DNA of 26,687 bases, taken from a virus. Shown here in pieces: positions 2 to 18,863 of this stretch; position 1 is the first letter of the stretch, and every line of letters starts with the position of its first letter. The notes under the pieces are model-generated. The model searched no databases. It saw nothing but the letters and a program-made list of their open reading frames with translations, and was not told where the DNA came from. The stretch lies in IMG/VR virus record IMGVR_UViG_3300008267_000299, positions 1 through 26,687 of that record; one strand, 5' to 3'. The translations under genes were made by a program, and so were the position numbers.

Positions 2-79
2 GAAACTGTAGAAAAACTTAGAATAGAAATGGCGCAACTTAAACGAAACATAAAAACAAGCACTATTTATAGGCAATGA
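2..79 (+). CDS. C-terminal end of an upstream gene (partial)
   Basis: A reading frame is open from the left edge of the window and stops at TGA 77-79. The 25 visible residues are charged and helical (EKLRIEMAQLKRNIK) and look like the tail of a coiled-coil or helical protein. The stop overlaps the next start as ATGA, the same coupling used by the following genes, which supports it being a real gene end. No function can be assigned from this fragment. Confidence 0.6.
   Translation, partial: ETVEKLRIEMAQLKRNIKTSTIYRQ
64..70 (+). promoter_or_regulatory. TATTTAT box, putative phage late promoter
   Basis: TATTTAT lies five bases before the ATG at 76, inside the end of the upstream gene. It is the first of ten such boxes placed just before genes. 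If it acts as a -10 element, transcription would begin at about the ATG, giving a leaderless mRNA. No -35 motif is visible. Confidence 0.5.
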
Positions 80-2628
80 ACACTTTAGCTAACTACTTAG
101 TCGAGCAGGTACTCGCAGAATTATCACAAGGAGTCATCGTTATGCTTCCGGGTGGCTTTAAGCCGCCACACATCGGTCACGTAGAATTGGCAAAGCGATA
201 TGCATCTCAACCAAACGTGTCTGAGGTTCGTATCCTTATTGGACCAAAAGAGCGTGATGGAATTACAATGGATCAGTCCATGGAGATTTGGAAGTTGTTA
301 TTAGGAGGTGCACCAAACATAAAGGTTGAGAGAGCACCAAACGATAACCCAATGAGAGCAGCTTACGAATATATTGAAACTGCGGAACCAGGAACCTATA
401 CATTAGGATCTAGCTCGAAGGGTAAGGATTACGAAAGAGTGAAGATGTTTGTAGCAGGTCATGCTCCAGGAACTGGAAAATACCATAGACCTGAGGTTAG
501 TGTTGTTGAGTTACCAATTAACACATCACCACTCCTTTACAAAGGACGTACCGATAATCTAAACGGACAAGGAATAAGTGCTAGTGTGCTAAGAGCAGAT
601 TTAGCAGCAAACAACTACGATAATGTCAAAACAAACTATCCAGGAATATCCGACAACGTTACTAAGACTATTTACTCTGTCTTAAAAAAAAATGATTTAT
701 CCGAAGCTGTAGTCTCAGATTGGGTGAACAAGCTTAAAGCAAAGTTCAAAGAAATTCTTCAAGCAGTGAAAGAGGAGGGGGTTGAAACTAAAAAAGCATT
801 CACCTTACTAATTCAAGCTGCACAAGGAAAAAAGAAACTAACCGACGAGGAAAAGGCTTGGGTTGGTAATCAAATGAAAGATGCACTCAAAGCAGCAGGC
901 TTAGTGGCAGCATCTATACTCCCAGGAGGAACAATTTACTTTGTATTAATTAGATTGCTAAAACTAGAAAAATACACAATGCCGGATCGCTTTCTAAGCA
1001 AGAACGCAGCGTCAGCAGGCACACTATCTTTAATGGAGAAGTCATGGATGACACCACAAGGAAGAGGGCCTAATTTTGATAAAGGGATCCTCCAAATCAA
1101 GTCTTTAATGCAAACCTTCTTCGAACGATTGAAATCAGCACCAAGAGATTTGCAGAGAGATTTTGCTCAGCTATATGCGCACGTTACTAAGACAGGACGC
1201 TTGTTGCAGTCATGGGAATTAGATCAAATAACACAAAAACTAGAACCAATACTAATTAAGTCTGGTTTCAATGTAAAGCTAGACAAAAAAGAGCTTCCAA
1301 TCGCACTTGTGCAGGCACTAAAAACGTTTCCAAAACTACAAGCAAGAGTGCCACAACAAGTGTTAGCTGAGCGTATGCTTTTGAAAGAAGGAGGAGCAGC
1401 TGGACACATGACTCATCCATACGAAGACTTAGACCTTACGTTTGGAGATGCACGCAATATGATTGACGCAGCTTTGAGTGGTAAAGTAGAGTTTGCTCAA
1501 GAAAAGTTAGATGGTCAAAATCTAATGGTCACTTACAAGGATGGTAAAGTTAGAGCAGCTCGTAACAAAGGACAGCTTAAAAACTACGCTGAAAACTCAA
1601 TCACTGCTGATCAGTTAGACCAGATGATGGCAGGAAAAGGGGCAGTTCAAACTGCATTTGTTGAGGCTATGCGAGATATGGAATCAGCAATAAACAAGTT
1701 GGATCCAACACAAAAAGAACAATTCTTCCAAAACGGAAAACGATTCATAAATTTTGAAGTGCTGTTTCCTGGAACTACAAACGTAGTACCTTACGGAGCA
1801 ACACAACTAAGACTCCACGGATTTAAAGAATATGATCAGGATGGTAATGTGGTTGATGAGGATTCTGAAGGAGCAGTTCAATTGCAAGCAGCAATTGACA
1901 AGGTTCAAGCGTCAAATCAAAAAACATATCAGATCCGCCATACAGATCCCATCACACTATCTAAAACTAAAGATTACGAAAAGCAAAAGGATGAGTTACT
2001 TAAGCAACTAGAGACTATTCGTAAGACATACGACCTTAAAGAGAATGATAAAACTTCACTCTACTTTCAAGCTTGGTGGAAAAATTACATTGAACAAAGA
2101 GCCAAAGAACTTGGTTACGAGATAGACGATAATACGTTACAGCAATTAATTAATCGCTGGGGATTTGGAAACAAGGAGGTGAACATTAAGAACATTCGAG
2201 CAATGATTAAAAATGTAGACTTCTTGAAGTGGGTAGATGATTTTGATAAGAATGGAGTATCAGCTCAGCAAAAGGAAGCAAAGCGACCACTTGAAAACCT
2301 ATTCCTAAAATTAGGAGTATATGTCTTGCAGAACATTCAGCAGTTAGTATCTATAAACCCTAACGACACTGTACAGAAGATGCGCGACGAATTAGCGTAT
2401 ACTATTAAAGGGATCCGAGCAGCAGCGGCTTCACCAGAAATGCAAGATGACGACAAAGGTTTGAAGTTTCTAAAACGAGAGTTGCAGAGACTGCAAGACT
2501 TGGGAGGCTTTAAAGCAATTGTTCCGTTAGAGGGAGTTGTATTTAAGTACAACGGAAAAATATACAAACTAACTGGTGCTTTTGCTCCAATTAACCAGAT
2601 CATTGGATATCTAAAATTTCAACGATGA
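76..2628 (+). CDS. Fusion of HxGH nucleotidyltransferase (NMNAT/cytidylyltransferase-like) and RNA/DNA-ligase-like domain
   Basis: This 850-residue protein has two catalytic modules. Residues 18-200 form an HxGH-type nucleotidyltransferase: GGFKPPHIGH with H32 and H35, and ISASVLR at 167-173, matching the ISxTxxR motif of NMN and pantetheine-phosphate adenylyltransferases. Residues 440-850 are a covalent nucleotidyltransferase (ligase) domain: motif I EKLDGQN with nucleophile K477, RAARNKG at 493-499, motif III FINFEVL around E561, motif IV EGVVF at 819-823 and motif V around K831. The KxDGxN form is closer to Rnl2-type RNA ligases than to DNA ligases. Motifs III and IV are about 258 residues apart, implying an inserted helical domain. 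Residues 272-297 are hydrophobic. Candidate head-protease sites occur near the N-terminus (LVE10, LAE15) and at both domain borders (LSE210/A, LKE438/G). Substrates are unknown; NAD metabolism and RNA repair are the leading possibilities. Confidence 0.8.
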   Translation: MNTLANYLVEQVLAELSQGVIVMLPGGFKPPHIGHVELAKRYASQPNVSEVRILIGPKERDGITMDQSMEIWKLLLGGAPNIKVERAPNDNPMRAAYEYIETAEPGTYTLGSSSKGKDYERVKMFVAGHAPGTGKYHRPEVSVVELPINTSPLLYKGRTDNLNGQGISASVLRADLAANNYDNVKTNYPGISDNVTKTIYSVLKKNDLSEAVVSDWVNKLKAKFKEILQAVKEEGVETKKAFTLLIQAAQGKKKLTDEEKAWVGNQMKDALKAAGLVAASILPGGTIYFVLIRLLKLEKYTMPDRFLSKNAASAGTLSLMEKSWMTPQGRGPNFDKGILQIKSLMQTFFERLKSAPRDLQRDFAQLYAHVTKTGRLLQSWELDQITQKLEPILIKSGFNVKLDKKELPIALVQALKTFPKLQARVPQQVLAERMLLKEGGAAGHMTHPYEDLDLTFGDARNMIDAALSGKVEFAQEKLDGQNLMVTYKDGKVRAARNKGQLKNYAENSITADQLDQMMAGKGAVQTAFVEAMRDMESAINKLDPTQKEQFFQNGKRFINFEVLFPGTTNVVPYGATQLRLHGFKEYDQDGNVVDEDSEGAVQLQAAIDKVQASNQKTYQIRHTDPITLSKTKDYEKQKDELLKQLETIRKTYDLKENDKTSLYFQAWWKNYIEQRAKELGYEIDDNTLQQLINRWGFGNKEVNIKNIRAMIKNVDFLKWVDDFDKNGVSAQQKEAKRPLENLFLKLGVYVLQNIQQLVSINPNDTVQKMRDELAYTIKGIRAAAASPEMQDDDKGLKFLKRELQRLQDLGGFKAIVPLEGVVFKYNGKIYKLTGAFAPINQIIGYLKFQR

Positions 2629-2954
2629 AAGATTTATACAAACAATTAAAAGAGGCTGCTATTAAGCAAACTCTTCTCGAAAAGAAAGAGGCAATTGCTA
2701 CGTCTGAGCACACCAACATGACACTACACTACGATTCAGATTTTAGCGAAGTAGGTGAGAGTGGTAATCCAGAGTTCAGCTTTAAGATCAGTGTATCTTC
2801 AACTGGAGGGAAAGAATACTTCAGAGGTGTTTCAGATAGCGAGGAGAGTGATAAGATTTCTGAAGCAGCACGACTAGAGTTACGTAGAGCAATACGTAAA
2901 TTTGACAAATACGTAGAATTAATTCTACAAAAATACAAGTTACAATCAAGATGA
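2625..2954 (+). CDS. Small hypothetical protein with capsid-targeting-like N-terminus
   Basis: A 109-residue protein whose start overlaps the previous stop as ATGA, so translation is probably coupled. The N-terminus MKDLYKQLKE is ten residues ending in LxE followed by Ala-Ala. This closely resembles the T4 internal-protein signal MKTYQEFIAE, which gp21 removes before Ala. A second LLE occurs at 17-19. The middle (30-75) is probably beta-rich (FSFKISVSS). The C-terminal third is a basic helix with RLELRRAIRKF. I do not recognise the family. The best guess is an internal head protein or a DNA-associated protein, from the leader and the neighbours only. Confidence 0.7.
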   Translation: MKDLYKQLKEAAIKQTLLEKKEAIATSEHTNMTLHYDSDFSEVGESGNPEFSFKISVSSTGGKEYFRGVSDSEESDKISEAARLELRRAIRKFDKYVELILQKYKLQSR

Positions 2955-3454
2955 GTTTATTTGTTACAACTGGAAATTCCAAAAAAGCCTACAAGGAAGG
3001 CGATGTGTGGACCGAGTCAGGAAAGACTTGGACAATTAAAAATGGCATCAAGCGTACCCTCACAAAGATGGATCAAGCGCGTAAGGATGTCTTAACCCCA
3101 TTTTCATGTCCTAGCTGTGGAGGTGCTATGAAGCATCACCTAGATTCAAAAATGTGGACAATTCACAAGACATGCTTTCAGTGTGTTATTGATGCAGAGC
3201 ATGAGATCATAAAAGCAGGAAAATGGGAGGAATATGAAAAATCAAAGATCACAGCAAATGCAGAGGCGTTTGTAAAAGATATGGAGTCAGCATTAAAGGA
3301 GTATGTTGACGAATCAGTTGCACAATCTCACGTTACTGAAAAAGGAATGGTAGAGCAGTGGAAGGATTCAAACAAAGGCTTTATTCAATCAGTTGTAGAT
3401 GACGAACTCAATCAATTAAAAAACAAAGTCGAAGACTATAAGAGTAAGAAATGA
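2951..3454 (+). CDS. Phage zinc-finger protein
   Basis: A 167-residue protein coupled to its neighbours by ATGA overlaps at both ends. Residues 15-40 (EGDVWTESGKTWTIKNGIK) form a short beta module. It is followed by a four-cysteine zinc site, CPSCGG at 53-58 and C75xxC78, with histidines between them. The remainder is a long charged helix (85-167) ending in a lysine-rich tail. I recall similar CxxC...CxxC proteins beside head genes of marine T4-like phages, but the function is not established. It may be structural or nucleic-acid binding. It lacks the short N-terminal LxE leader seen in its neighbours. Confidence 0.7.
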   Translation: MSLFVTTGNSKKAYKEGDVWTESGKTWTIKNGIKRTLTKMDQARKDVLTPFSCPSCGGAMKHHLDSKMWTIHKTCFQCVIDAEHEIIKAGKWEEYEKSKITANAEAFVKDMESALKEYVDESVAQSHVTEKGMVEQWKDSNKGFIQSVVDDELNQLKNKVEDYKSKK

Positions 3455-4050
3455 CAACAACAATCCTAGCAGTTATAGCAGCCGTAATATCAGGAATAGT
3501 AGGTCCTGTGTTGGTGTTATTTGTAAAGCAGCATTTGGATGATAGGAAATCAGAAAAGGAAGATCTTATCAATGAATCTGACTTGGGTGAAATGGTAACT
3601 GTATTGGAGTTTATCGAGGACATAAGAACGTCTTACGGTTTTGATCGAGTGAGCATTTGCCAGTTCCATAACGGAGGTAAGTTCTTAAACGGAAGGTCTA
3701 TGAAGAAGTTTTCTATGACTTATGAAACAGTGGCTCCGGGGATCGAAAAGATAAAGCGTAGATACCAAAACGTACTAGTCTCCGAGTTCCCTAAATTATT
3801 CTCAGCAATGATGAAAGAGCCGTTTTTGATCATAAACCAAGAAGATGACGACTTTCCAGCTCTGAGAAGAGAGATGCAAACTAATGGGATTGTGCAGTCT
3901 GTAAAGATGAGCATTGTCGGATTGCGAGGAGAGGTACTAGGCTTCATAACTTGCCATTGTATAGGAAAGCCAAATGACTTAGTAGGCAACTACTTGAGAC
4001 ATGAGCTACAGGATAAAGCTAATCAAATATCGGGATACTTAGCTAAATAA
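3451..4050 (+). CDS. Membrane-anchored GAF-like domain protein
   Basis: A 199-residue protein. Residues 2-26 form one uncharged hydrophobic helix (ILAVIAAVISGIVGPVLVLF), a signal anchor, followed by a charged linker. Residues 50-197 look like a GAF-type sensor fold: an amphipathic helix, then VSICQFHNGG and GRSMKKFSMTYE, later VKMSIVGLRGEVLGFITCH, with strand-helix alternation. The soluble domain would probably face the cytoplasm, but topology cannot be settled from sequence alone. It is coupled to the gene before it by ATGA. A virion or host-membrane role is possible; no ligand-binding residues can be named with confidence. Confidence 0.6.
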   Translation: MTTTILAVIAAVISGIVGPVLVLFVKQHLDDRKSEKEDLINESDLGEMVTVLEFIEDIRTSYGFDRVSICQFHNGGKFLNGRSMKKFSMTYETVAPGIEKIKRRYQNVLVSEFPKLFSAMMKEPFLIINQEDDDFPALRREMQTNGIVQSVKMSIVGLRGEVLGFITCHCIGKPNDLVGNYLRHELQDKANQISGYLAK

Positions 4051-4051
4051 T

Positions 4052-4504
4052 ATGAACGAGGATTCAAAAGGACTGTGGGCAAATATAAGAGCTAAGCGAG
4101 CTCGAGGTGAAGCGCCTGCACGCAAAGGATCTGAGGCACATAAAAAAGCGGTAGCTGCTGCTAAGAGGATAAATGCAGAAGAGGGTGTGTACGAGGTAAC
4201 TATCTGTGAAGCGTGTGCATTATCGTTGATGGAAGCTATAAGAGATACTAAGGTTCAGTTAGGAGAAGCGGAGTATCAAGGACGCACCGTTAAGTTGGGC
4301 AAGCCAATGCAAGGTGACGTAAAGAAATTTAAAGTGTATGTAAAGAATCCAAAAGGAAACGTAGTTAAAGTTAATTTTGGAGATCCTAACATGAGAATAA
4401 AAAAGAGTGATCCAGCTCGAAGAAAATCCTTTAGAGCTAGACATAATTGCGATAATCCAGGACCAAGAGATAAAGCTCGATATTGGTCATGTAGAAAGTG
4501 GTAA
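4052..4504 (+). CDS. Conserved phage protein with basic N-terminus and Cys-containing C-terminal module
   Basis: A 150-residue, strongly basic protein with two modules. Residues 1-42 (GLWANIRAKRARGE, then KKAVAAAKRIN) are Lys/Arg/Ala-rich and helical. Residues 70-150 contain GKPMQGDVKKF, NFGDPNMRIKKSDPARRKSF and the ending HNCDNPG...ARYWSCRKW. I recall this C-terminal module as common in head clusters of T4-like marine phages. Between the modules, LMEAIRD and LGEAEYQG carry LxE followed by Ala, the form cut by T4-type prohead proteases, so the two modules may be separated during maturation. Charge suggests DNA binding inside the head; this is inference. Confidence 0.7.
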   Translation: MNEDSKGLWANIRAKRARGEAPARKGSEAHKKAVAAAKRINAEEGVYEVTICEACALSLMEAIRDTKVQLGEAEYQGRTVKLGKPMQGDVKKFKVYVKNPKGNVVKVNFGDPNMRIKKSDPARRKSFRARHNCDNPGPRDKARYWSCRKW

Positions 4505-4505
4505 G

Positions 4506-5645
4506 ATGAAATTAAGAAAACTAATAGAGAAGGTTGATCCAGCCAAAATTGATGCAAACTTATATCCTAATAGGTTGAGTAAGGTCAATCAAAAACTCGC
4601 ATCAACAGTGGTTAACAATTCAAGCCCAGGCGATGAGGATTTGGGTGATACGAAGAAGGCAGGTTTATCAGCAGATCAACTTAAAATCAGCCAAACAACA
4701 ATGGACTTAGATAAGTTTATTGGGATGGGTATTGGTATGATGTGTAGATCTAAGTACTTTCCAAACGGTCCGGGTGGAGATTTAGGAGCAATCGTATCAA
4801 GTGATAACCATATCATGGACGGTCATCATCGATGGGCAGCTACAATTCTTGCCAATCCAAAAGCAAAAGTATTTGGTTTATTCGTTAGCCTCCCTGGTGA
4901 AAAACTAGTAGGAGTGCTTAATACGTGGACCGCTGCACGCAAACAAAAAGGCAAACCATCCACACACAAGATGGCTCAACTATCACCTGATGCAATTAAA
5001 GCTCGATTTATAGAGCTGGCTAGCAAGGGAGGTGGAGCACTTCCGGACGCTCAAACAATCCTACAAGGACTACAGCAGAACAACTACGGAAGCGTAGAGC
5101 AGGCAGCTGAGACTGCAGCAAAGAATTGGGCAGCCAACGCAAAACTAAGAGCAATAGAGTCATGGATGCCCGAAAAGATTGACATGCCAGCAATCGAGCA
5201 AAAGCAGCTAGCGCAAGTAGCTAGTGACATTCAGCAAGGAAAGATCGATCTTAACCCACCTTACAGCGAGCCAACAAAAAAAGCTGCCCAAGCAGCAGGT
5301 GTTGATATATCAGAAAAAACTATGAAAGCATCAGAATTTAAAAAACTAATCCGCGAAGAGGTTCATAGGGCCTTAAAACAAAAATCAATCGCAGAAAATA
5401 AAACAGTTCGTGAGCTCAAGTTTACATCAGCAGGTGTTAAGGAGCTTTTGAAGACTGTATTTAACAATCTACATCTACTACCTAAACTTGGCTTTGATAC
5501 CTTTAAGCAAGTACTGGATTACATAAAGTTCGGCGATCAGGAAGAGCAGACAGAATTGGAGAATCGATTAAAGAGTTTAGGTGTTAATCTAGTATCGGAA
5601 TTAAAACAACCAAAAAAGAGTGAAGTTAAGAAGAGCATTAAATGA
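4506..5645 (+). CDS. ParB/Srx-like protein with an internal second leader-like segment
   Basis: The frame is open from 4407, but the start chosen is ATG 4506, one base after the previous stop. That gives 379 residues and the leader MKLRKLIE (LIE8). Residues 85-150 carry a ParB/sulfiredoxin-type signature: IVSSDNHIMDGHHRWAA with D105-G-H-H-R109. Residues 155-270 are Ala/Gln-rich and helical. At M273 a segment MKASEFKKLIREEV begins that looks like another capsid-targeting leader (IRE284). The following 95 residues form a separate helical domain, so this may be two internal proteins fused in one frame, or an internal start at 5322. Activity (nuclease, CTP-binding or phosphotransfer) cannot be decided. 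Confidence 0.75.
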   Translation: MKLRKLIEKVDPAKIDANLYPNRLSKVNQKLASTVVNNSSPGDEDLGDTKKAGLSADQLKISQTTMDLDKFIGMGIGMMCRSKYFPNGPGGDLGAIVSSDNHIMDGHHRWAATILANPKAKVFGLFVSLPGEKLVGVLNTWTAARKQKGKPSTHKMAQLSPDAIKARFIELASKGGGALPDAQTILQGLQQNNYGSVEQAAETAAKNWAANAKLRAIESWMPEKIDMPAIEQKQLAQVASDIQQGKIDLNPPYSEPTKKAAQAAGVDISEKTMKASEFKKLIREEVHRALKQKSIAENKTVRELKFTSAGVKELLKTVFNNLHLLPKLGFDTFKQVLDYIKFGDQEEQTELENRLKSLGVNLVSELKQPKKSEVKKSIK

Positions 5646-8543: not shown

Positions 8544-8904
8544 CGAACCACAAGTTTGTATGCCAGCTAGTCGAGCACGCAAAGTAGCTCAAGACTTGCT
8601 TCGCTTGGATTCACTTGCAGCTGAACACAATAAGACTCTTTTTGTACTCGAACGTACACAAACTAAGCTAGTTGTGAAGGACAGCATCATAAGCTCAAAC
8701 GAAGAAAAGATTGCTGAATATCTTGAAGAGATTGGAACACATAAAGAAAAATATACAGTTGCTAACAATCGAGTTACCGAACTACAAGAGAGTGTAAGCA
8801 CGCTACAAACAAAGAACGAAAACCTACAAGGTTGGATCAAAGGCTTAGGAGGAGGTTTGATTGCAACAATGACCACATTGATAACGATAATACTTGTCAA
8901 ATAA
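8467..8904 (+). CDS. Secreted coiled-coil protein with C-terminal membrane helix
   Basis: A 145-residue protein overlapping the previous gene by 77 bases in a different frame. It has a clear signal peptide (MVKGLKMLVVFLLLSLTTFS, cleavage around 20-21), a coiled-coil body (40-120) and a hydrophobic C-terminus (GLGGGLIATMTTLITIIL). ATG 8485 is an alternative start and would still keep a signal sequence. There is no Leu-x-x-Cys lipobox, so it is not a standard Rz1 lipoprotein. The protein would be exported and held by its C-terminal helix. It ends one base before the terminase start. A lysis or envelope role is likely; exact function is unknown. Confidence 0.55.
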   Translation: MVKGLKMLVVFLLLSLTTFSQNATSNEPQVCMPASRARKVAQDLLRLDSLAAEHNKTLFVLERTQTKLVVKDSIISSNEEKIAEYLEEIGTHKEKYTVANNRVTELQESVSTLQTKNENLQGWIKGLGGGLIATMTTLITIILVK

Positions 8905-8905
8905 T

Positions 8906-10483
8906 ATGTCAGATCAGCAGAAAACATTAAAGGAGATAATCAAGGAGGAGTACATAAAGTGTGCCCGTTCCGCATCATACTTTATGAAAAAATACTGCGT
9001 GATCCAGCATCCTACTCGAGGTAAGATTCCATTTCACCTATATCCATATCAGGAAGGTGCATTACAAGACTTCCAGGAAAATGATAGGACAATCATCTTA
9101 AAATCTAGGCAGCTTGGTATTTCAACATTGATTGCTGGTTACGCACTTTGGATGATTTTGTTTCAAAATGATAAAAACGTACTTGTAGTTGCGATCGACC
9201 AGAATACATCTAAAAACCTCGTAACAAAGGTACGAGTAATGTTCGACAATTTACCTAGCTGGTTAAAATTGAAGGCGGTTGAAAGTAATAAACTATCGAT
9301 GAGGTTATCAAATGGATCACAAATCAAGGCCGTATCAAGTACCGGAACATCTGGTCGATCTGAGGCACTATCACTTGTGATCATAGATGAGGCAGCTTTC
9401 GTCGATGGCGCAGAAGAGTTATGGGCTTCATTGCAGCAAACATTATCAACGGGTGGTCAGGGTATATTATTGTCAACCCCAAACGGAACTGGTAACTTTT
9501 TTCACAAAATGTGGGCAAAGGCTGAGGCTGGAGAAAACAAATTCAAAACACTAAGACTACCGTGGACCGTCCATCCAGAGCGAGATCAAGTATGGCGAAA
9601 TAGGCAGGAGGCAGAATTAGGAGCGAGACTGGCAGCGCAGGAATGTGATTGTGATTTTAGCACTTCTGGAAATACTGTTGTTTCTCCTGATTTGATAACT
9701 CACCACATGAATACCTTTGCAAAAGATCCTATTGAAAAGAGAGGATTTGATGGTAATCTATGGGTGTGGGAGATTCCCGATTACACGAGAAGCTATTTAA
9801 TAGCAGCCGATGTTGCAAGAGGAGATGGATCGGACTTTTCTGCATTCCATGTAATTGATATAGAATCATGCACTCAGGTTGCTGAGTATAAAGGCCAAGT
9901 ATCAACTAAAGACTTTGGCAATATGCTAGTTGCTGCGGGAACAGAGTATAACGACGCTTTGTTGGTAGTGGAAAACGCAAACGTAGGTTGGGCAACATTG
10001 CAGCAAATAATTGAACGTGGATATAAAAATCTCTATTACACACCAAAGGATAGTGGTTTAGATTCAGATAAGTTTCTCACAAAGGGATATGATCTAACAG
10101 ACAAAAAGGATATGGTCGCCGGGTTTACTAACTCACACAAAGTAAGGCCTCTGACAATATCCAAGATGGAGTTGTATATTCGAGAGAATAGTTGTATAAT
10201 AAGAAGTAAGCGTTTACTGGATGAATTGTTTGTATTTATTTACAGAGCCGGTAGACCAGAAGCTGCCTCCGGCTACAACGACGACTTGGTAATGAGTTTT
10301 TGTCAAGGATTGTGGGTAAGAGATACAGCACTAAGATTAAGGCAAGCAGGAATCGAGTTAAACCGAATGGCAGTAAATAATATAAAATCTACAGTATCTA
10401 TCTACAAGCCTACCTTTAGTAACCGTGCTTTCAAAGTGAAAACTCAACACGGAAACGACGAAGACATTAACTGGTTGTTGTGA
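8906..10483 (+). CDS. 17: Terminase large subunit (T4 gp17-like)
   Basis: ATP-driven DNA packaging motor with headful nuclease. ATG 8906 is chosen over TTG 8894 because it follows the upstream stop by one base; it gives 525 residues. Order: Walker A-like SRQLGIST at 67-74, Walker B LVIIDEAAF with D161-E162, coupling motif LLSTPNGTG at 188-196. The RNase-H-fold nuclease follows, with acidic residues D302 (IAADVARGDGSD), E356 (LLVVENANVGW) and D459/D460 (GYNDDLVMSF). T4 gp17 is about 610 residues, so this one is shorter at the N-terminus. It is followed directly by its own promoter box and the portal gene; no small terminase, sheath or tube gene is adjacent. Confidence 0.96.
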   Translation: MSDQQKTLKEIIKEEYIKCARSASYFMKKYCVIQHPTRGKIPFHLYPYQEGALQDFQENDRTIILKSRQLGISTLIAGYALWMILFQNDKNVLVVAIDQNTSKNLVTKVRVMFDNLPSWLKLKAVESNKLSMRLSNGSQIKAVSSTGTSGRSEALSLVIIDEAAFVDGAEELWASLQQTLSTGGQGILLSTPNGTGNFFHKMWAKAEAGENKFKTLRLPWTVHPERDQVWRNRQEAELGARLAAQECDCDFSTSGNTVVSPDLITHHMNTFAKDPIEKRGFDGNLWVWEIPDYTRSYLIAADVARGDGSDFSAFHVIDIESCTQVAEYKGQVSTKDFGNMLVAAGTEYNDALLVVENANVGWATLQQIIERGYKNLYYTPKDSGLDSDKFLTKGYDLTDKKDMVAGFTNSHKVRPLTISKMELYIRENSCIIRSKRLLDELFVFIYRAGRPEAASGYNDDLVMSFCQGLWVRDTALRLRQAGIELNRMAVNNIKSTVSIYKPTFSNRAFKVKTQHGNDEDINWLL

Positions 10484-10506: not shown

Positions 10507-12375
10507 ATGGCTGAAAGACAACAATCACAGTCCTTATTTGGTGCATTAAGACGTTTATTCAGTACTGACGTAATCATCCGCAATGTAGGAGGTAACCAGC
10601 TCAAGGTTATTGATACTAATAAATTGCAGTCAGATGGTAACTTAAAGACCAACAGAAGAGTTGACCGATACTCGAGATTATTCTCGACAATGCCAGGCGG
10701 AATGTCTATGCATGCAGGTCAGCTGCAACTTTATACTCGCTTGGAGTTGTTTCGTGATTACGAGGCAATGGATACGGATAGTATTATTTCATCAGCACTA
10801 GACATATACGCCGATGAGTGTACTGCTAAGAATGAGTTTGGAGATATGCTGGCAATTCAATCTTCAAATGAGAAAGTACAAAAAGTATTGCACAACCTAT
10901 TTTACGACATCTTAAACGTTGAGTTTAACTTATGGCCGTGGATTAGAAACACAGTTAAGTATGGAGATTTCTTCCTAAAACTCAACATTGCAGAAAAATA
11001 TGGTGTAATTGGTGTAGAGCCAATTTCAGCGTATGAGATGATTAGAGAAGAAGGAATGAATCCCGAAGATCCAAATGAGATCAAATTCAAAAGAGACTTC
11101 ACAGCTCTATCTTCTGCTTATTCTGTAAGCTCAACACGAAATAGTGAAGAATTTGATAACTACGAGATTGCACATTTTCGCTTACTATCGGATACCAACT
11201 TTCTACCTTACGGTCGATCAATAATCGAACCGACAAGAAAAGTTTGGAAACAGATAACTCTAATGGAAGATGCGATGTTAATTCATCGTATCATGCGTGC
11301 ACCAGATAAGCGTGTATTTAAGATTGACATCGGTAACATACCACCAAACGAGGTTGATGCGTTTATGGAGGGTATGACTAGTAAGATGCAAAAAGTACCT
11401 TATGTAGATCCTGAATCAGGAGAGTACAACTTAAAGTATAACATGCAAAACCTACTAGAAGACTTCTACCTACCAGTACGTGGAGCTGAAAGTGGTACAT
11501 CCATAGAATCCTTAGCCGGGATTCAATACGACTCTATTGCGGATATCGAGTATTTGAGAAACCGATTACTAGGGTCTTTGAAGATTCCAAAAGCATACTT
11601 AGGGTACGAAGAAGATACAACTGGAAAGGCAACACTAGCATCACAAGACTTTCGATTTGCAAGAACGATCGAACGAGTGCAGAAGATCATTGTATCTGAG
11701 CTGTACAAGATTGCACTAGTACACCTTTATGCTCAAGGATTCCAAGACGAAGACTTAGTGGATTTCACATTAAGTCTTACAGCACCATCATCAGTATACG
11801 AGAAAGAAAAGGTAGAGCTTTGGACGTCCAAAGTGACTCTAGCTGGCGACATGGTTGAAAAGAAACTATTCAGTAGATATTGGGTATACGAAAATCTATT
11901 CAATATGAGTGAGCAGCAGTGGATGGAGGAGCAGGATAGGATCATACGAGATACCAAGGAGCAGTTTAGATTAGAGCAAATTAAGACAGAAGGAAACGAT
12001 CCATCTAAAACTGGTCAGTCATTTGGAACACCACACGACTTAGCACAACTATACAAAGGTAATGGAGGCGTGCCAAAGGGATACGATGAGAAGATGCCAG
12101 AAGGTGGATGGCCTGGAGCTGGAAGACCGGAAGAGCCGGGAACTTATGCAACTCACAAGCATCCGTTAGGATGGGATCCACTAGGAGCCAAGAGTATTCG
12201 AAAAGTTTACGAACAAGAAAAGCGAATGGAATCTAACCGCTCATTGTTAAATTCATTAGAAAAGACTATGGGTAGTAAAAAGCAAGCACTCAAAGAAACA
12301 TACGATCTTAGCGATGAAAATGATACAAAAGATCCAGATTTGTTAAGCGAAGATAATCTATTACAAGAGGAATAA
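10507..12375 (+). CDS. 20: Portal protein (T4 gp20-like)
   Basis: The dodecameric portal at the DNA-packaging vertex. The 622-residue length compares with 524 in T4. T4-like portal signatures include RRVDRYSRLF at 50-59, MDTDSIISSALDIYADECT at 88-106, WIRNTVKYGDFFLKL at 145-159, ISAYEMIREEG at 173-183 and the clip region MEDAMLIHRIMRAPDKRVFK at 253-272. An extended C-terminus (about 505-622) is rich in Gly, Pro and charge. It probably starts an operon with the two following head proteins, the protease and the core proteins, driven by the box at 10485 and again at 12388. Confidence 0.96.
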   Translation: MAERQQSQSLFGALRRLFSTDVIIRNVGGNQLKVIDTNKLQSDGNLKTNRRVDRYSRLFSTMPGGMSMHAGQLQLYTRLELFRDYEAMDTDSIISSALDIYADECTAKNEFGDMLAIQSSNEKVQKVLHNLFYDILNVEFNLWPWIRNTVKYGDFFLKLNIAEKYGVIGVEPISAYEMIREEGMNPEDPNEIKFKRDFTALSSAYSVSSTRNSEEFDNYEIAHFRLLSDTNFLPYGRSIIEPTRKVWKQITLMEDAMLIHRIMRAPDKRVFKIDIGNIPPNEVDAFMEGMTSKMQKVPYVDPESGEYNLKYNMQNLLEDFYLPVRGAESGTSIESLAGIQYDSIADIEYLRNRLLGSLKIPKAYLGYEEDTTGKATLASQDFRFARTIERVQKIIVSELYKIALVHLYAQGFQDEDLVDFTLSLTAPSSVYEKEKVELWTSKVTLAGDMVEKKLFSRYWVYENLFNMSEQQWMEEQDRIIRDTKEQFRLEQIKTEGNDPSKTGQSFGTPHDLAQLYKGNGGVPKGYDEKMPEGGWPGAGRPEEPGTYATHKHPLGWDPLGAKSIRKVYEQEKRMESNRSLLNSLEKTMGSKKQALKETYDLSDENDTKDPDLLSEDNLLQEE

Positions 12376-13255: not shown

Positions 13256-13988
13256 AAGAAGACTTACAAAAGAGGATATCGAAGAGGTTCGCAACTACAT
13301 TAAGAAGCTGCGCAAAGAAGGAAGTACGACAGCCAATGCTCCAGGTTTCCTTACAGCAGCAGCTTGGACTGGTGAAGAGGGTGGTGAGGGTACAAAAGCC
13401 ATCGATGTTGAGGATGATCAATACGCATTTTCAATAAAGCCTTCTGAAAAGAAGCAACACTTTATTAAGTTGCATGAAGCGAATTACAAGGCTTTTAAGG
13501 AAGACGCAACATCTACTCATGTTCAAAAAATCAATCGCAGAATACTCGAAGTAAATAAAATGCTTAGAGAGATTTCGCAGGCATTGGATCATAGCATAAA
13601 GCTAAAACAAGAGTCAGCTGTAGATAATTCAAGATATTGGAAAAAGACCAACGAAGCGTTTTTGAAGATGAAGTCTAGGCTATCTGAGGTGAATAAGAAG
13701 ATAGGCCAATTAGCTAATTTAAAGGAATTAGCAGCAAACGCTGTTAAAGATAAGTTATTCCAATTACTAACAAAAGCAGGAGTACAAGTATCAGCAGATG
13801 ACATAGACTACAATCAAGTGGCAGCTGATCAGTATGAGTTTGACGTTATGATTGGAGGAGAGCCTTACGCAATAGATTACGACAAAGGTTTACTGGTTTA
13901 TCAAGGCTACGATCAGGAGGTAGAGATAGGTAGCATCAACCAAGAGATGCAAGTTGTAGCTAAACTAGGACAAATTTTTAAACAATGA
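13245..13988 (+). CDS. Conserved protein upstream of the prohead protease
   Basis: A 247-residue protein. The N-terminus is a basic helix (SSKRRLTKEDIEEVRNYIKK) followed by a Gly/Ala/Thr linker (APGFLTAAAWTGEEGG). The middle (80-165) is a long helix or coiled coil, including NRRILEVNKMLREISQALDHS. The C-terminal 75 residues form a small alpha/beta domain ending with VDIDYN-like strands and DKGLLVYQGYDQEVEIGS. It overlaps the previous gene by 11 bases and the protease gene by four (ATGA), implying translational coupling. The function is unknown; position suggests a structural or core role. Confidence 0.7.
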   Translation: MSSKRRLTKEDIEEVRNYIKKLRKEGSTTANAPGFLTAAAWTGEEGGEGTKAIDVEDDQYAFSIKPSEKKQHFIKLHEANYKAFKEDATSTHVQKINRRILEVNKMLREISQALDHSIKLKQESAVDNSRYWKKTNEAFLKMKSRLSEVNKKIGQLANLKELAANAVKDKLFQLLTKAGVQVSADDIDYNQVAADQYEFDVMIGGEPYAIDYDKGLLVYQGYDQEVEIGSINQEMQVVAKLGQIFKQ

Positions 13989-14602
13989 ATAAGTCAGTAT
14001 TAGTAGATTACATTGGATCAATCCAAGTGACTCCTGAGCAAATCACAGAGTCAATGGCCAAGAACGAAGGAAAGGTCATCGTATCTGGTGTAATGCAGCG
14101 TGGTAGTGATGGTAGAGATCAAAACTTTAACCAAAATGGTAGAAGCTATCCATTACCAATCTTAAAGCGTGAGTGCGAAAAATACAAAAATGTATTTATC
14201 AAAGAGCGTAGAGCTTTAGGTGAACTAGACCATCCAGAGTCTTCTGTAGTAAACTTAGCAAATGTGTCTCATAACGTCTTAGATATTTGGTGGGATGGAA
14301 CCGACTTGATGGGTAAGATTGAAATCTTAGCAACACCATCAGGAAACATTGCAAAAGAGTTGCTACGAGCAGGAATCCGTTTAGGTATTTCATCTCGAGG
14401 AATGGGATCAGTAAAAAACCTAGGAGAGGGTAAAGTAGAAGTGCAAGATGACTTTGAAATTGTATGTTGGGACTTGGTTTCCAATCCATCTACACAAGGT
14501 GCATTTATGTCCCCATCCCTAAACGAAAGTGTAAGCCGAGGAGGATCAAACAAGTATTCAAAAATCAACTCACTAATTGGTGACATAATATCAGTAATGT
14601 AA
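13985..14602 (+). CDS. 21: Prohead core protease (T4 gp21-like serine protease)
   Basis: This protease trims scaffold, capsid and internal proteins at (L/I)xE sites before packaging. The 205-residue length is close to T4 gp21 (212). Catalytic motifs visible: His in ALGELDHPESSVV (H83), Ser in GISSRGMGS (S137, next to S136) and a likely Asp in CWDLVSNPS (D163). The sequence NFNQNGRSYPLPIL at 47-60 is also typical. Near the C-terminus SLNE181/S is a plausible autocleavage site. The gene lies between two conserved head proteins and a run of leader-bearing core proteins, which would be its substrates. Substrate candidates also lie 76-8188. Confidence 0.95.
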   Translation: MNKSVLVDYIGSIQVTPEQITESMAKNEGKVIVSGVMQRGSDGRDQNFNQNGRSYPLPILKRECEKYKNVFIKERRALGELDHPESSVVNLANVSHNVLDIWWDGTDLMGKIEILATPSGNIAKELLRAGIRLGISSRGMGSVKNLGEGKVEVQDDFEIVCWDLVSNPSTQGAFMSPSLNESVSRGGSNKYSKINSLIGDIISVM

Positions 14603-17252: not shown

Positions 17253-18863
17253 ATGAACTTGTTTGAAAACATTCATAACGAGAACAGAGGTGAAGCAACA
17301 AAGCCTCTAATCTCTAAGTGGTCTCGTACGGGATTACTTGAGGGCTTGAAAGGTAAGAATGAGAAGTCAACTGTGGCTGTCCTTCTTGAAAACCAAGCTC
17401 GTCAATTAGTAAAAGAAGGATCTGGAACAACTGCAGGTGTAGGTGGATCAGGATTCGAGCAGTGGACTGGTGTAGCTCTACCGTTGGTACGAAGAGTATT
17501 CGCTGAAATCGCTGCTAAAGAATTCGTTTCTGTACAGCCGATGAACTTGCCTTCTGGTCTAGTATTCTACTTAGACTTCAAATACGGTAACAACAAGAAG
17601 CCTTTCGGATTTGCTCCAACTGGACAAAACCAAACAGGAACACTTCAAGGTGTTACTAACCAAGTTGGTGCTCCAACTGATGGTCTTTACGGTGCAGGTC
17701 GTTTTGGTTACTCAGTAAACACTCAAGTAGGTACTGCAGCTGCTGCAACTACTGCTTCTGCAGGTGTTTCTGACGTAAACTACGATGGTCTATACACTGC
17801 TTCTGTAGCTACGTTGTGGAAAACTTGGGCTATCGCTACATCTTCTATCGCTAACTTTGATCCGTATGCAGTACGTTCGTTTGTTCCAGTTTCTGGATCA
17901 ACTACACTAACTGCAGGTCAATACTTGCCAGCGTTTACAAGATTGTCTGGTGGTAATGTCGTATTCGTTGTAACTGCTTCTATCGCAGGAGCTGTTGGTA
18001 CAGCTGCAGCAAACACTGCAATCAGCTACTCTATCCAGCCTACAAACGATAACAGAAATGACTTCGAATCAACTGGAGTAGACGCTAACAACCGTAACCT
18101 AGACACAGACTTGAACATCCCAGAAATTGAATTGCAAATGCGTTCAATTCCAGTAACTGCTAAGACTCGTAAGTTGAAAGCAAGCTGGACACCTGAGTTT
18201 GCTCAAGATCTTAACGCATACCACTCAGTAGATGCTGAAGGAGAATTGACAGCTATGTTGTCAGAGTATGTATCAATGGAGATCGACCTAGAGATCCTAG
18301 ACATGCTTATCTCTGCAGCTGCTACAACTGAGTACTGGTCTGCAAAAGTTGGTCAAGAGTGGACTGGAGCAGGATTTGCACCAAGCCAATTCAACGGTCA
18401 AGCTTACATCCAAGGTACTTGGTTTGCTACCCTAGGTACTAAACTACAAAAAGTATCTAACCAAATCCATGCTAAAACTCTACGTGGTGGAGCAAACTTC
18501 TTAGTATGTTCTCCAGACGTTTCTACAATCCTTGAGTCAATCCCAGGATATGCAGCAGACGGAGACGGAAGCAAGTCTAAGTATGCAATGGGTGTACAAA
18601 AAGTAGGTGCTATGACTAGCCGCTACGAAGTGTACAAAAATCCATACATGCAAGAGAACACAGTATTAATGGGCTTCAGAGGATCTCAATTCCTTGAAAC
18701 TGGTGCAGTTTATGCTCCTTACATTCCATTAATGTTGACTCCACTTGTGTACGATCCTAAGAACTTCATCCCAAGACGTGGTGTAATGACTCGCTACGCG
18801 AAAGTTGTTACTCGTCCTGAGTTCTACGGAAAAGTGTATGTAGCTGATTTGAACAACTATTAA
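17253..18863 (+). CDS. 23: Major capsid protein (T4 gp23-like)
   Basis: The HK97-fold shell protein, 536 residues (T4: 521). The N-terminal region has KWSRTGLLEGL (22-32) and AVLLENQARQLVKEGSG (42-58). The block GVALPLVRRVFAEIAAKEFV followed by SVQPMNLPSGLVFYLDFKYG is highly characteristic. The C-terminus RYAKVVTRPEFYGKVYVADL is also typical. The expected gp21 cut is after E55 (LVKE/GSG), here V-K-E rather than the usual I/L-x-E. Residues 150-270 form a Thr/Ala-rich inserted domain. It shares the leader and promoter of the scaffold gene and is followed by a strong terminator. Confidence 0.97.
   Translation: MNLFENIHNENRGEATKPLISKWSRTGLLEGLKGKNEKSTVAVLLENQARQLVKEGSGTTAGVGGSGFEQWTGVALPLVRRVFAEIAAKEFVSVQPMNLPSGLVFYLDFKYGNNKKPFGFAPTGQNQTGTLQGVTNQVGAPTDGLYGAGRFGYSVNTQVGTAAAATTASAGVSDVNYDGLYTASVATLWKTWAIATSSIANFDPYAVRSFVPVSGSTTLTAGQYLPAFTRLSGGNVVFVVTASIAGAVGTAAANTAISYSIQPTNDNRNDFESTGVDANNRNLDTDLNIPEIELQMRSIPVTAKTRKLKASWTPEFAQDLNAYHSVDAEGELTAMLSEYVSMEIDLEILDMLISAAATTEYWSAKVGQEWTGAGFAPSQFNGQAYIQGTWFATLGTKLQKVSNQIHAKTLRGGANFLVCSPDVSTILESIPGYAADGDGSKSKYAMGVQKVGAMTSRYEVYKNPYMQENTVLMGFRGSQFLETGAVYAPYIPLMLTPLVYDPKNFIPRRGVMTRYAKVVTRPEFYGKVYVADLNNY

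Follow-up and report, generated by a model that had tools for sequence, protein, structure and literature searches.

A putative head-loaded enzyme polyprotein in T4-type aquatic phages, in which a putative protease site and an internal start alternate before an RNA-ligase-like domain

We describe an 850 amino acid long protein encoded near one end of the virus record IMGVR_UViG_3300008267_000299 (IMG/VR), which comes from a T4-like freshwater phage. The window, as we use the word below, is the whole stretch of DNA analysed, i.e., the 26,687 bases of this record. The open reading frame (ORF; positions 76-2628, plus strand, as are all of its parts; ATG start) joins an HxGH nucleotidyltransferase domain and an RNA-ligase-like domain in one chain. 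Its best reading, and probably the correct one, is a modular polyprotein that is loaded into the phage head and cut there by the prohead protease. It is likewise likely that a widespread family of T4-type aquatic phages shares such a head-loaded enzyme polyprotein, and that in this family the ligase is freed either by proteolysis in the capsid or by an internal start at the identical residue, with repeated switches between the two. The original prediction, made from this one sequence, had proposed a polyprotein made in the head. As an idea this gains support from conserved LxE/G or LxE/A sites (the slash marks the putative cut), from a capsid-targeting-like N-terminus, and from a neighbourhood of head genes with a gp21-type protease. 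Relatives were collected by searches seeded with the ligase domain, which more than 580 IMG/VR contigs encode; a collection of bacterial and archaeal genomes has four loci only, probably phage contigs in metagenome-assembled genomes.

Two putative prohead-protease sites lie inside the chain. LSE210/A (positions 697-708) follows the HxGH domain, and LKE438/GG (positions 1381-1395) forms the border of the ligase domain. Both had been predicted to fall at domain borders; the positions are exact, and the sites are conserved at the same borders in relatives. In AlphaFold models they fall in low-confidence linkers (residues 208-211; residues 412-438 and the first five residues of the ligase model), where the predicted local distance difference test score (pLDDT) is below 50. 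The pattern [LIV]xE[AGS] occurs twice in the window protein, against 2.33 sites expected after shuffling (P = 0.68). Site number is thus at chance in the single sequence and proves nothing; the evidence is conservation among relatives, without which a claim based on one sequence would have failed. At the second border, the ligase start GG(A)xGH(M/L)xHP is conserved and the sequence preceding it is variable, yet of the 63 distinct peptides found upstream, 45 have [LIV]xE exactly before GG; the counts at other offsets range from 0 to 13. At the first border, an 18 amino acid segment behind the HxGH domain contains [LIV]xE in 19 of 20 distinct relatives from the clade of the window, compared with 35% expected, and all 28 distinct marine relatives have LxE at the close of the HxGH module (LLKE/GS, LIKE/SS, LLSE/AS, and others).

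The same signature is found in a protein of the phage shell. The window carries a T4-type head module with terminase (positions 8894-10483), portal (10507-12375), a T4 gp21-type prohead protease (13985-14602, plus strand; phrog_207, head maturation protease, E 1.4e-49), and the major capsid protein (17253-18863, plus strand; phrog_138, E 2e-71), which has an N-terminal site QLVKE55/GS. T4 gp21 cleaves after L/I-x-E (PMC9026906). In the window and 11 relatives the border of the capsid pro-region reads LVKE/GS, LIKE/GS, LLKE/GS, LVKE/AS, LIDE/AS, LIKE/AS, or LISE/AN, and the polyprotein sites share the LxE/G or LxE/A signature with this border of the same phages' capsid protein (gp23 pro-region border).

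The residue before the ligase GG takes only two states. Among 109 distinct border sequences with a GG start, it is Glu in 73 and Met in 36, and nothing else. The first 81 sequences comprise 56 with Glu, where P3 is always Leu or Ile and P2 is any of eleven different residues, and 25 with Met; a second set of 28 new loci adds 17 Glu and 11 Met. An in-frame Shine-Dalgarno sequence at the right spacing accompanies every Met (36/36) and no Glu (0/73). Met borders mostly read AAGGAG tta tta tta ATG. In the second set the Shine-Dalgarno sequence is kept in the DNA while the encoded residues differ (KE, RK, RS), as at L106 and L111. AAG GAG is not a mere codon habit, since GAG makes up 27% of Glu codons and AAG 28% of Lys codons in the Met-type ORFs. 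The Shine-Dalgarno pattern was widened after inspection for AGGGGG and AGAGAG (L034, L036, L057, L059); the first-scan pattern (AGGAG, GGAGG, GGGAG, AGGGGG) matched 23 of the first 25 Met borders. The raw counts are inflated by relatedness. On a tree, there are 11 state changes for the 109 sequences (8 for the first set), and the sober figure is that of the independent-pair test, in which 8 pairs on supported branches all point in the same direction (p 0.008).

We read these two states as two routes to the same free ligase, which would arise by a cut after Glu or by a start at Met. An internal start is known for T4 gene 21 (also PMC9026906), which sets a precedent among T4-type head genes. Two other possibilities were considered and rejected. 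Met might serve as an alternative P1 residue of the protease in phages with LLLM/GG; this is ruled out by the capsid site of one such phage (G007/L037), which is of the Glu type (LIDE/AS). An internal start might also lie at Met445 (GHM) in the window. Other internal ATGs in the Met-type ORFs rarely have a Shine-Dalgarno sequence, with the exception of this GHM a few codons downstream of the border, where the upstream GGAGG is a product of the Gly-Gly codons; in the window it is about 13 nucleotides off, and relatives with GHL have no ATG there. As relatives swap a cut site for an internal start codon, the two enzymes appear meant to act apart.

The N-terminus of the polyprotein suggests how it may reach the head. 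Residues 1-10 (MNTLANYLVE; positions 76-105) form a putative capsid-targeting sequence with the layout of T4 IPIII and IPII (MNTLANYLVE/Q in the window, MKTYQEFIAE/A in T4). The putative cleavage E10/Q11 is a third site, which the original prediction overlooked. In T4 the capsid-targeting sequence has ten residues, of which positions 4 and 7 target the protein and positions 8 and 10 serve processing (PMC9026906). The pattern M..[LIVY]..[YFW][LIV] is present in the polyprotein ORF at 15 of 17 loci tested, and in just two other ORFs of those loci. In the huge phage LR756500 the ligase is a stand-alone ORF with a targeting-like N-terminus of its own and ILE/GG, and a separate HxGH ORF adjoins it. 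Within the window, LxE[AGSQ] no more than 25 amino acids from the start is found in 9 of 32 proteins, compared with 2.6 expected (P 0.0005), an excess such as a set of head-targeted proteins would show. The small ORF just downstream of the polyprotein (positions 2625-2954, plus strand) has a head-targeting-like N-terminus, MKDLYKQLKE/AA; its site is LKE10/A in the window and LQE/A in L002 and L003.

The RNA-ligase-like covalent nucleotidyltransferase domain (residues 439-850, positions 1390-2625; mean pLDDT of the model 91.8) is the most conserved part of the chain and occurs in every member of the ligase-seeded collection. The residues K477, D479, G480, E561, E819, G820, and K831 of ligase motifs I, III, IV, and V are invariant in 25 aligned relatives, within the strings EKLDGQN (K477), EGVVF (E819), and a YKLTG-type string. 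K477 (positions 1504-1506; motif I EKLDG) is the predicted adenylation lysine. The T4 side of our profile comparison is Rnl2, and hhalign pairs EKLDGQN with its EKIHGTN. Structural comparison of the model by VIA-align gives Z scores of 9.8 for the Naegleria RNA ligase, 8.8 for T4 Rnl1, 8.4-8.5 for the fungal tRNA ligase, and 8.3 for T4 Rnl2, with matches spanning 169-203 residues, while DNA ligases score 7.3 or lower. The domain had been proposed to be an RNA or DNA ligase. Its ligase nature is supported by the invariant motif residues and the fold, and the model places the fold nearest to RNA ligases rather than DNA ligases, which refines the proposal toward the former. In our scans the ligase family has no Pfam or PHROG match at cut-off; PF09414 appears in one relative only (E 0.027), and a search of the PDB with the ligase sequence profile returned chance matches only (SMC3 and others). 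Scans of the whole window polyprotein against Pfam, PHROG, and NCBIfam gave nothing besides a weak match to phrog_395.

The N-terminal domain (about residues 20-205, positions 133-690; block-mean pLDDT mostly 82-94) is an HxGH nucleotidyltransferase of the NMNAT/PPAT type. The HxGH motif GGFKPPHIGH covers residues 26-35, and the second motif (ISSTxxR type) is ISASVLR at residues 167-173, of which S168 and R173 are invariant across 20 relatives. A profile search of the PDB matched nicotinamide mononucleotide, nicotinate mononucleotide, and pantetheine-phosphate adenylyltransferases (E down to 9e-9), and Foldseek gave a probability of 1.00 to NaMNAT and PPAT (nucleotidyltransferase Rossmann-like fold). 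Motifs, profiles, and structure search thus agree with the NMNAT/cytidylyltransferase-type domain that had been predicted. The Pfam family PF01467 leaves the window protein unmatched and matches 19 of 42 relatives at E up to 1e-3. Degenerate forms of the HxGH motif (FGPHH, MGRHH, LTGAH) occur in L037, L041, L043, L068, and the majority of marine relatives; catalysis by the N-terminal enzyme may thus be altered or lost in many of these phages.

Between the two domains lies a variable middle segment (residues 211-438, positions 706-1389), which is helical, with a hydrophobic part at about residues 255-305 and a tail (residues 412-438) that is disordered in the model. Residues 211-310 (about positions 706-1005) include the hydrophobic helical stretch KAAGLVAASILPGGTIYFVLIRLLKLEKYTMPDRF, and the NCBIfam model NF040639 ("LETM1-related") is matched by 2 of 42 relatives. 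Length and content of the segment differ among relatives, whose extra modules sit between or before the two constant domains. In L089 there is a tRNA nucleotidyltransferase of the CCA- or A-adding kind (PF01743, E 1.5e-29). A P-loop kinase (zeta/PNK type) is present in 9 of 42 relatives, and a HAD phosphatase akin to phage polynucleotide kinase (phrog_415) in 3 of 42. Nudix domains also occur, and a 3' exonuclease-like domain (PF00929) is found once. Together with the RNA-ligase fold, these modules resemble a toolkit that heals and seals RNA ends, and RNA end repair would most likely be the job of the ligase. Phage RNA ligases, kinases, and nucleotidyltransferases have been discussed in this role (PMC7824862, PMC9503650). 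The chain of L089 (L089:835-6552) is 1,906 residues long; besides the CCA-adding enzyme it comprises the HxGH and ligase modules, a segment resembling ParB (LLAGNTRMM), and a further part. Most marine relatives (L028, L037, L043, L068, L089, and others) have, directly behind the LxE border, a module that starts DDGPPTFYDGFxDY and for which no family match was found.

We propose the following course of events. The N-terminal capsid-targeting sequence would draw the polyprotein into the prohead core, where the gp21-type prohead protease would cut it after E10, E210, and E438. The cuts would free the HxGH (NMNAT-like) nucleotidyltransferase, the linker segment, and an RNA-ligase-like enzyme beginning at Gly439, and all freed parts would enter the next host along with the DNA. 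There the ligase may repair RNA ends, e.g., of tRNA cut by host defence nucleases, and the other modules of the family may heal the ends. The in-frame Shine-Dalgarno sequence and ATG at the identical residue, present in many marine relatives, would free the ligase in the cytosol instead.

Several points weigh against this reading. Packaging, cleavage, delivery, activities, and role are all steps that we infer. At the first border P1' is highly variable (A, S, N, G, D, E, H, K), E10/Q11 carries an unusual P1', and the ligase start of the huge phage LR756508 (L006) lacks E/GG. One subclade (L020, L023, L024, L035, L049, L051) starts with MNKITVLFPGG and has no targeting sequence, and it keeps both internal sites. 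The relatives with an internal start would make the ligase outside the head; for them delivery is therefore not needed and cannot be claimed. As to the ligase assignment, the Foldseek result is borderline (E 2e-3, low TM-scores), and the T4 Rnl2 profile match is weak (hhalign E 0.0027, probability 11%), with motif I in register.

A second possibility keeps the packaged and cleaved polyprotein and differs in its main role, which would be NAD+ (nicotinamide adenine dinucleotide) chemistry: the HxGH enzyme would be an NMNAT restoring NAD+ drained by the NADase defences of the host, and the ligase would be secondary. We consider this less likely. Among relatives, HxGH domains match NMNAT models of the archaeal and NadM types (TIGR01527, PRK05379), the phage proteins nearest to the L090 domain carry NMNAT/Nudix annotation, and NAD+ salvage by phages is known (PMC9503650). 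However, in this ligase-seeded collection it is the ligase that is best conserved and always present; the HxGH motif is degenerate in many relatives (GPHH, GRHH, TGAH); the same profile also matches pantetheine-phosphate adenylyltransferase, and there is no NadV partner among the 20 ORFs scanned in this 26.7 kb fragment. NAD+ restoration, which the original prediction had raised, thus gained no support beyond plausibility, and the other modules of the family speak no less for the repair of RNA ends. Because relatives insert CCA-adding, kinase, HAD, and Nudix modules, we favour repair of RNA or tRNA ends over that of NAD+.

It is doubtful that the fusion stays uncleaved in the head, as a single late enzyme of the cytosol or the virion in which the Glu before GG is structural. 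The chance-level number of sites in the single sequence and the inferred nature of the cleavage would fit such a protein. Against it stand the exchange of Glu solely for Met with a Shine-Dalgarno sequence, at least 8 times independently, a free P2 beside fixed P3 and P1, and the predicted disorder of the border. T4 gp63 is both RNA ligase 1 and a tail-fibre attachment factor, and it is very improbable that our ligase acts in the same way or seals DNA nicks in the genome as it enters the host: the polyprotein ORF does lie directly downstream of large adhesin-like ORFs, but the fold is nearer to RNA ligases than to DNA ligases, CCA-adding, kinase, HAD, and Nudix modules share its chain in relatives, and a head-targeting sequence is not needed for a tail function.

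Compared with known systems, the polyprotein resembles the T4 internal head proteins (IPI, IPII, IPIII, Alt) in its N-terminal signal of about 10 residues with key positions 4, 7, 8, and 10, in its L/I-x-E sites for a gp21-type protease (putative here), and in its head-gene context. Unlike them, it is not a single unit that loses short end peptides, and consists of several enzyme modules with conserved sites between them. With polyvalent proteins, which have been proposed to be delivered together with DNA (Iyer et al. 2017, PMC5512222), it shares a multidomain phage chain of mosaic module content. A text search of PMC5512222 found no cytidylyltransferase or NMNAT, a brief mention of RNA ligases, and nothing on prohead-protease sites between modules or on an internal start in their place. 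Published hallmark domains of polyvalent proteins include MPTase, DarA-N, and ARTs; a Zn protease model is matched by 1 of 42 relatives of our polyprotein. The ligase has the catalytic-domain fold (Z 8.3-9.8) and motifs I to V of T4 Rnl1, T4 Rnl2, the Naegleria RNA ligase, and fungal Trl1; its identity with them is about 12%, and it differs in its large helical insertions, the lack of a Pfam family at cut-off, and the HxGH fusion. The HxGH domain has the fold and motifs of phage NadM/NadR NMNATs and NAD+ salvage enzymes, and differs from them in its fusion to a ligase with protease sites and in a catalytic motif that is degenerate in many relatives. An isolated phage, Microcystis phage Mel-JY01, has a homologue (WWT39297.1, "cytidylyltransferase like protein") with an HxGH-like domain, IAE/GG, and a ligase, encoded upstream of the terminase; it is 639 amino acids long, with a short linker and MGIHH instead of HxGH, and its ligase half is unannotated. 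We found no description of the fusion of an HxGH domain with a ligase in the open-licence literature.

Some observations concern the surroundings of the ORF. A nucleotide search gave short matches only, in an ORF neighbouring the polyprotein. At positions 3451-4050, an N-terminal hydrophobic segment precedes a weak match to the GAF domain (PF01590, E 0.0013, below cut-off). The end of the ORF at 4052-4504 (positions 4268-4504) has about 70% DNA identity with short ORFs of the Pelagibacter phages Aegir and Kolga, and a stretch near it matches a Roseobacter phage ORF that bears the name HVA1 family; this region is possibly a mobile small module. A ParB-like DGHHRW motif is found in the neighbouring ORF 4407-5645 and recurs in LR756508, where the polyprotein (L006:10483-13230) has it at its N-terminus. 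In LR756508, an ORF downstream of the terminase (L006:18517-20298) has an intein-like insertion, CVSGDTRVLTNNGYIPIKKIYE ... VHNC.

If our reading is true, the head protease of tailed phages, besides maturing the shell, also unpacks a set of enzymes from one chain, and one targeting signal suffices to load several proteins in equal number, an arrangement comparable to the polyprotein of an RNA virus. The alternation of Glu with Met and a Shine-Dalgarno sequence is a rare natural test of a protein border as a release point. The delivered enzyme sets of many uncultured aquatic phages would then be readable from sequence by cutting at LxE, and RNA repair carried in the virion would be a candidate counter-defence from the first moment of infection.

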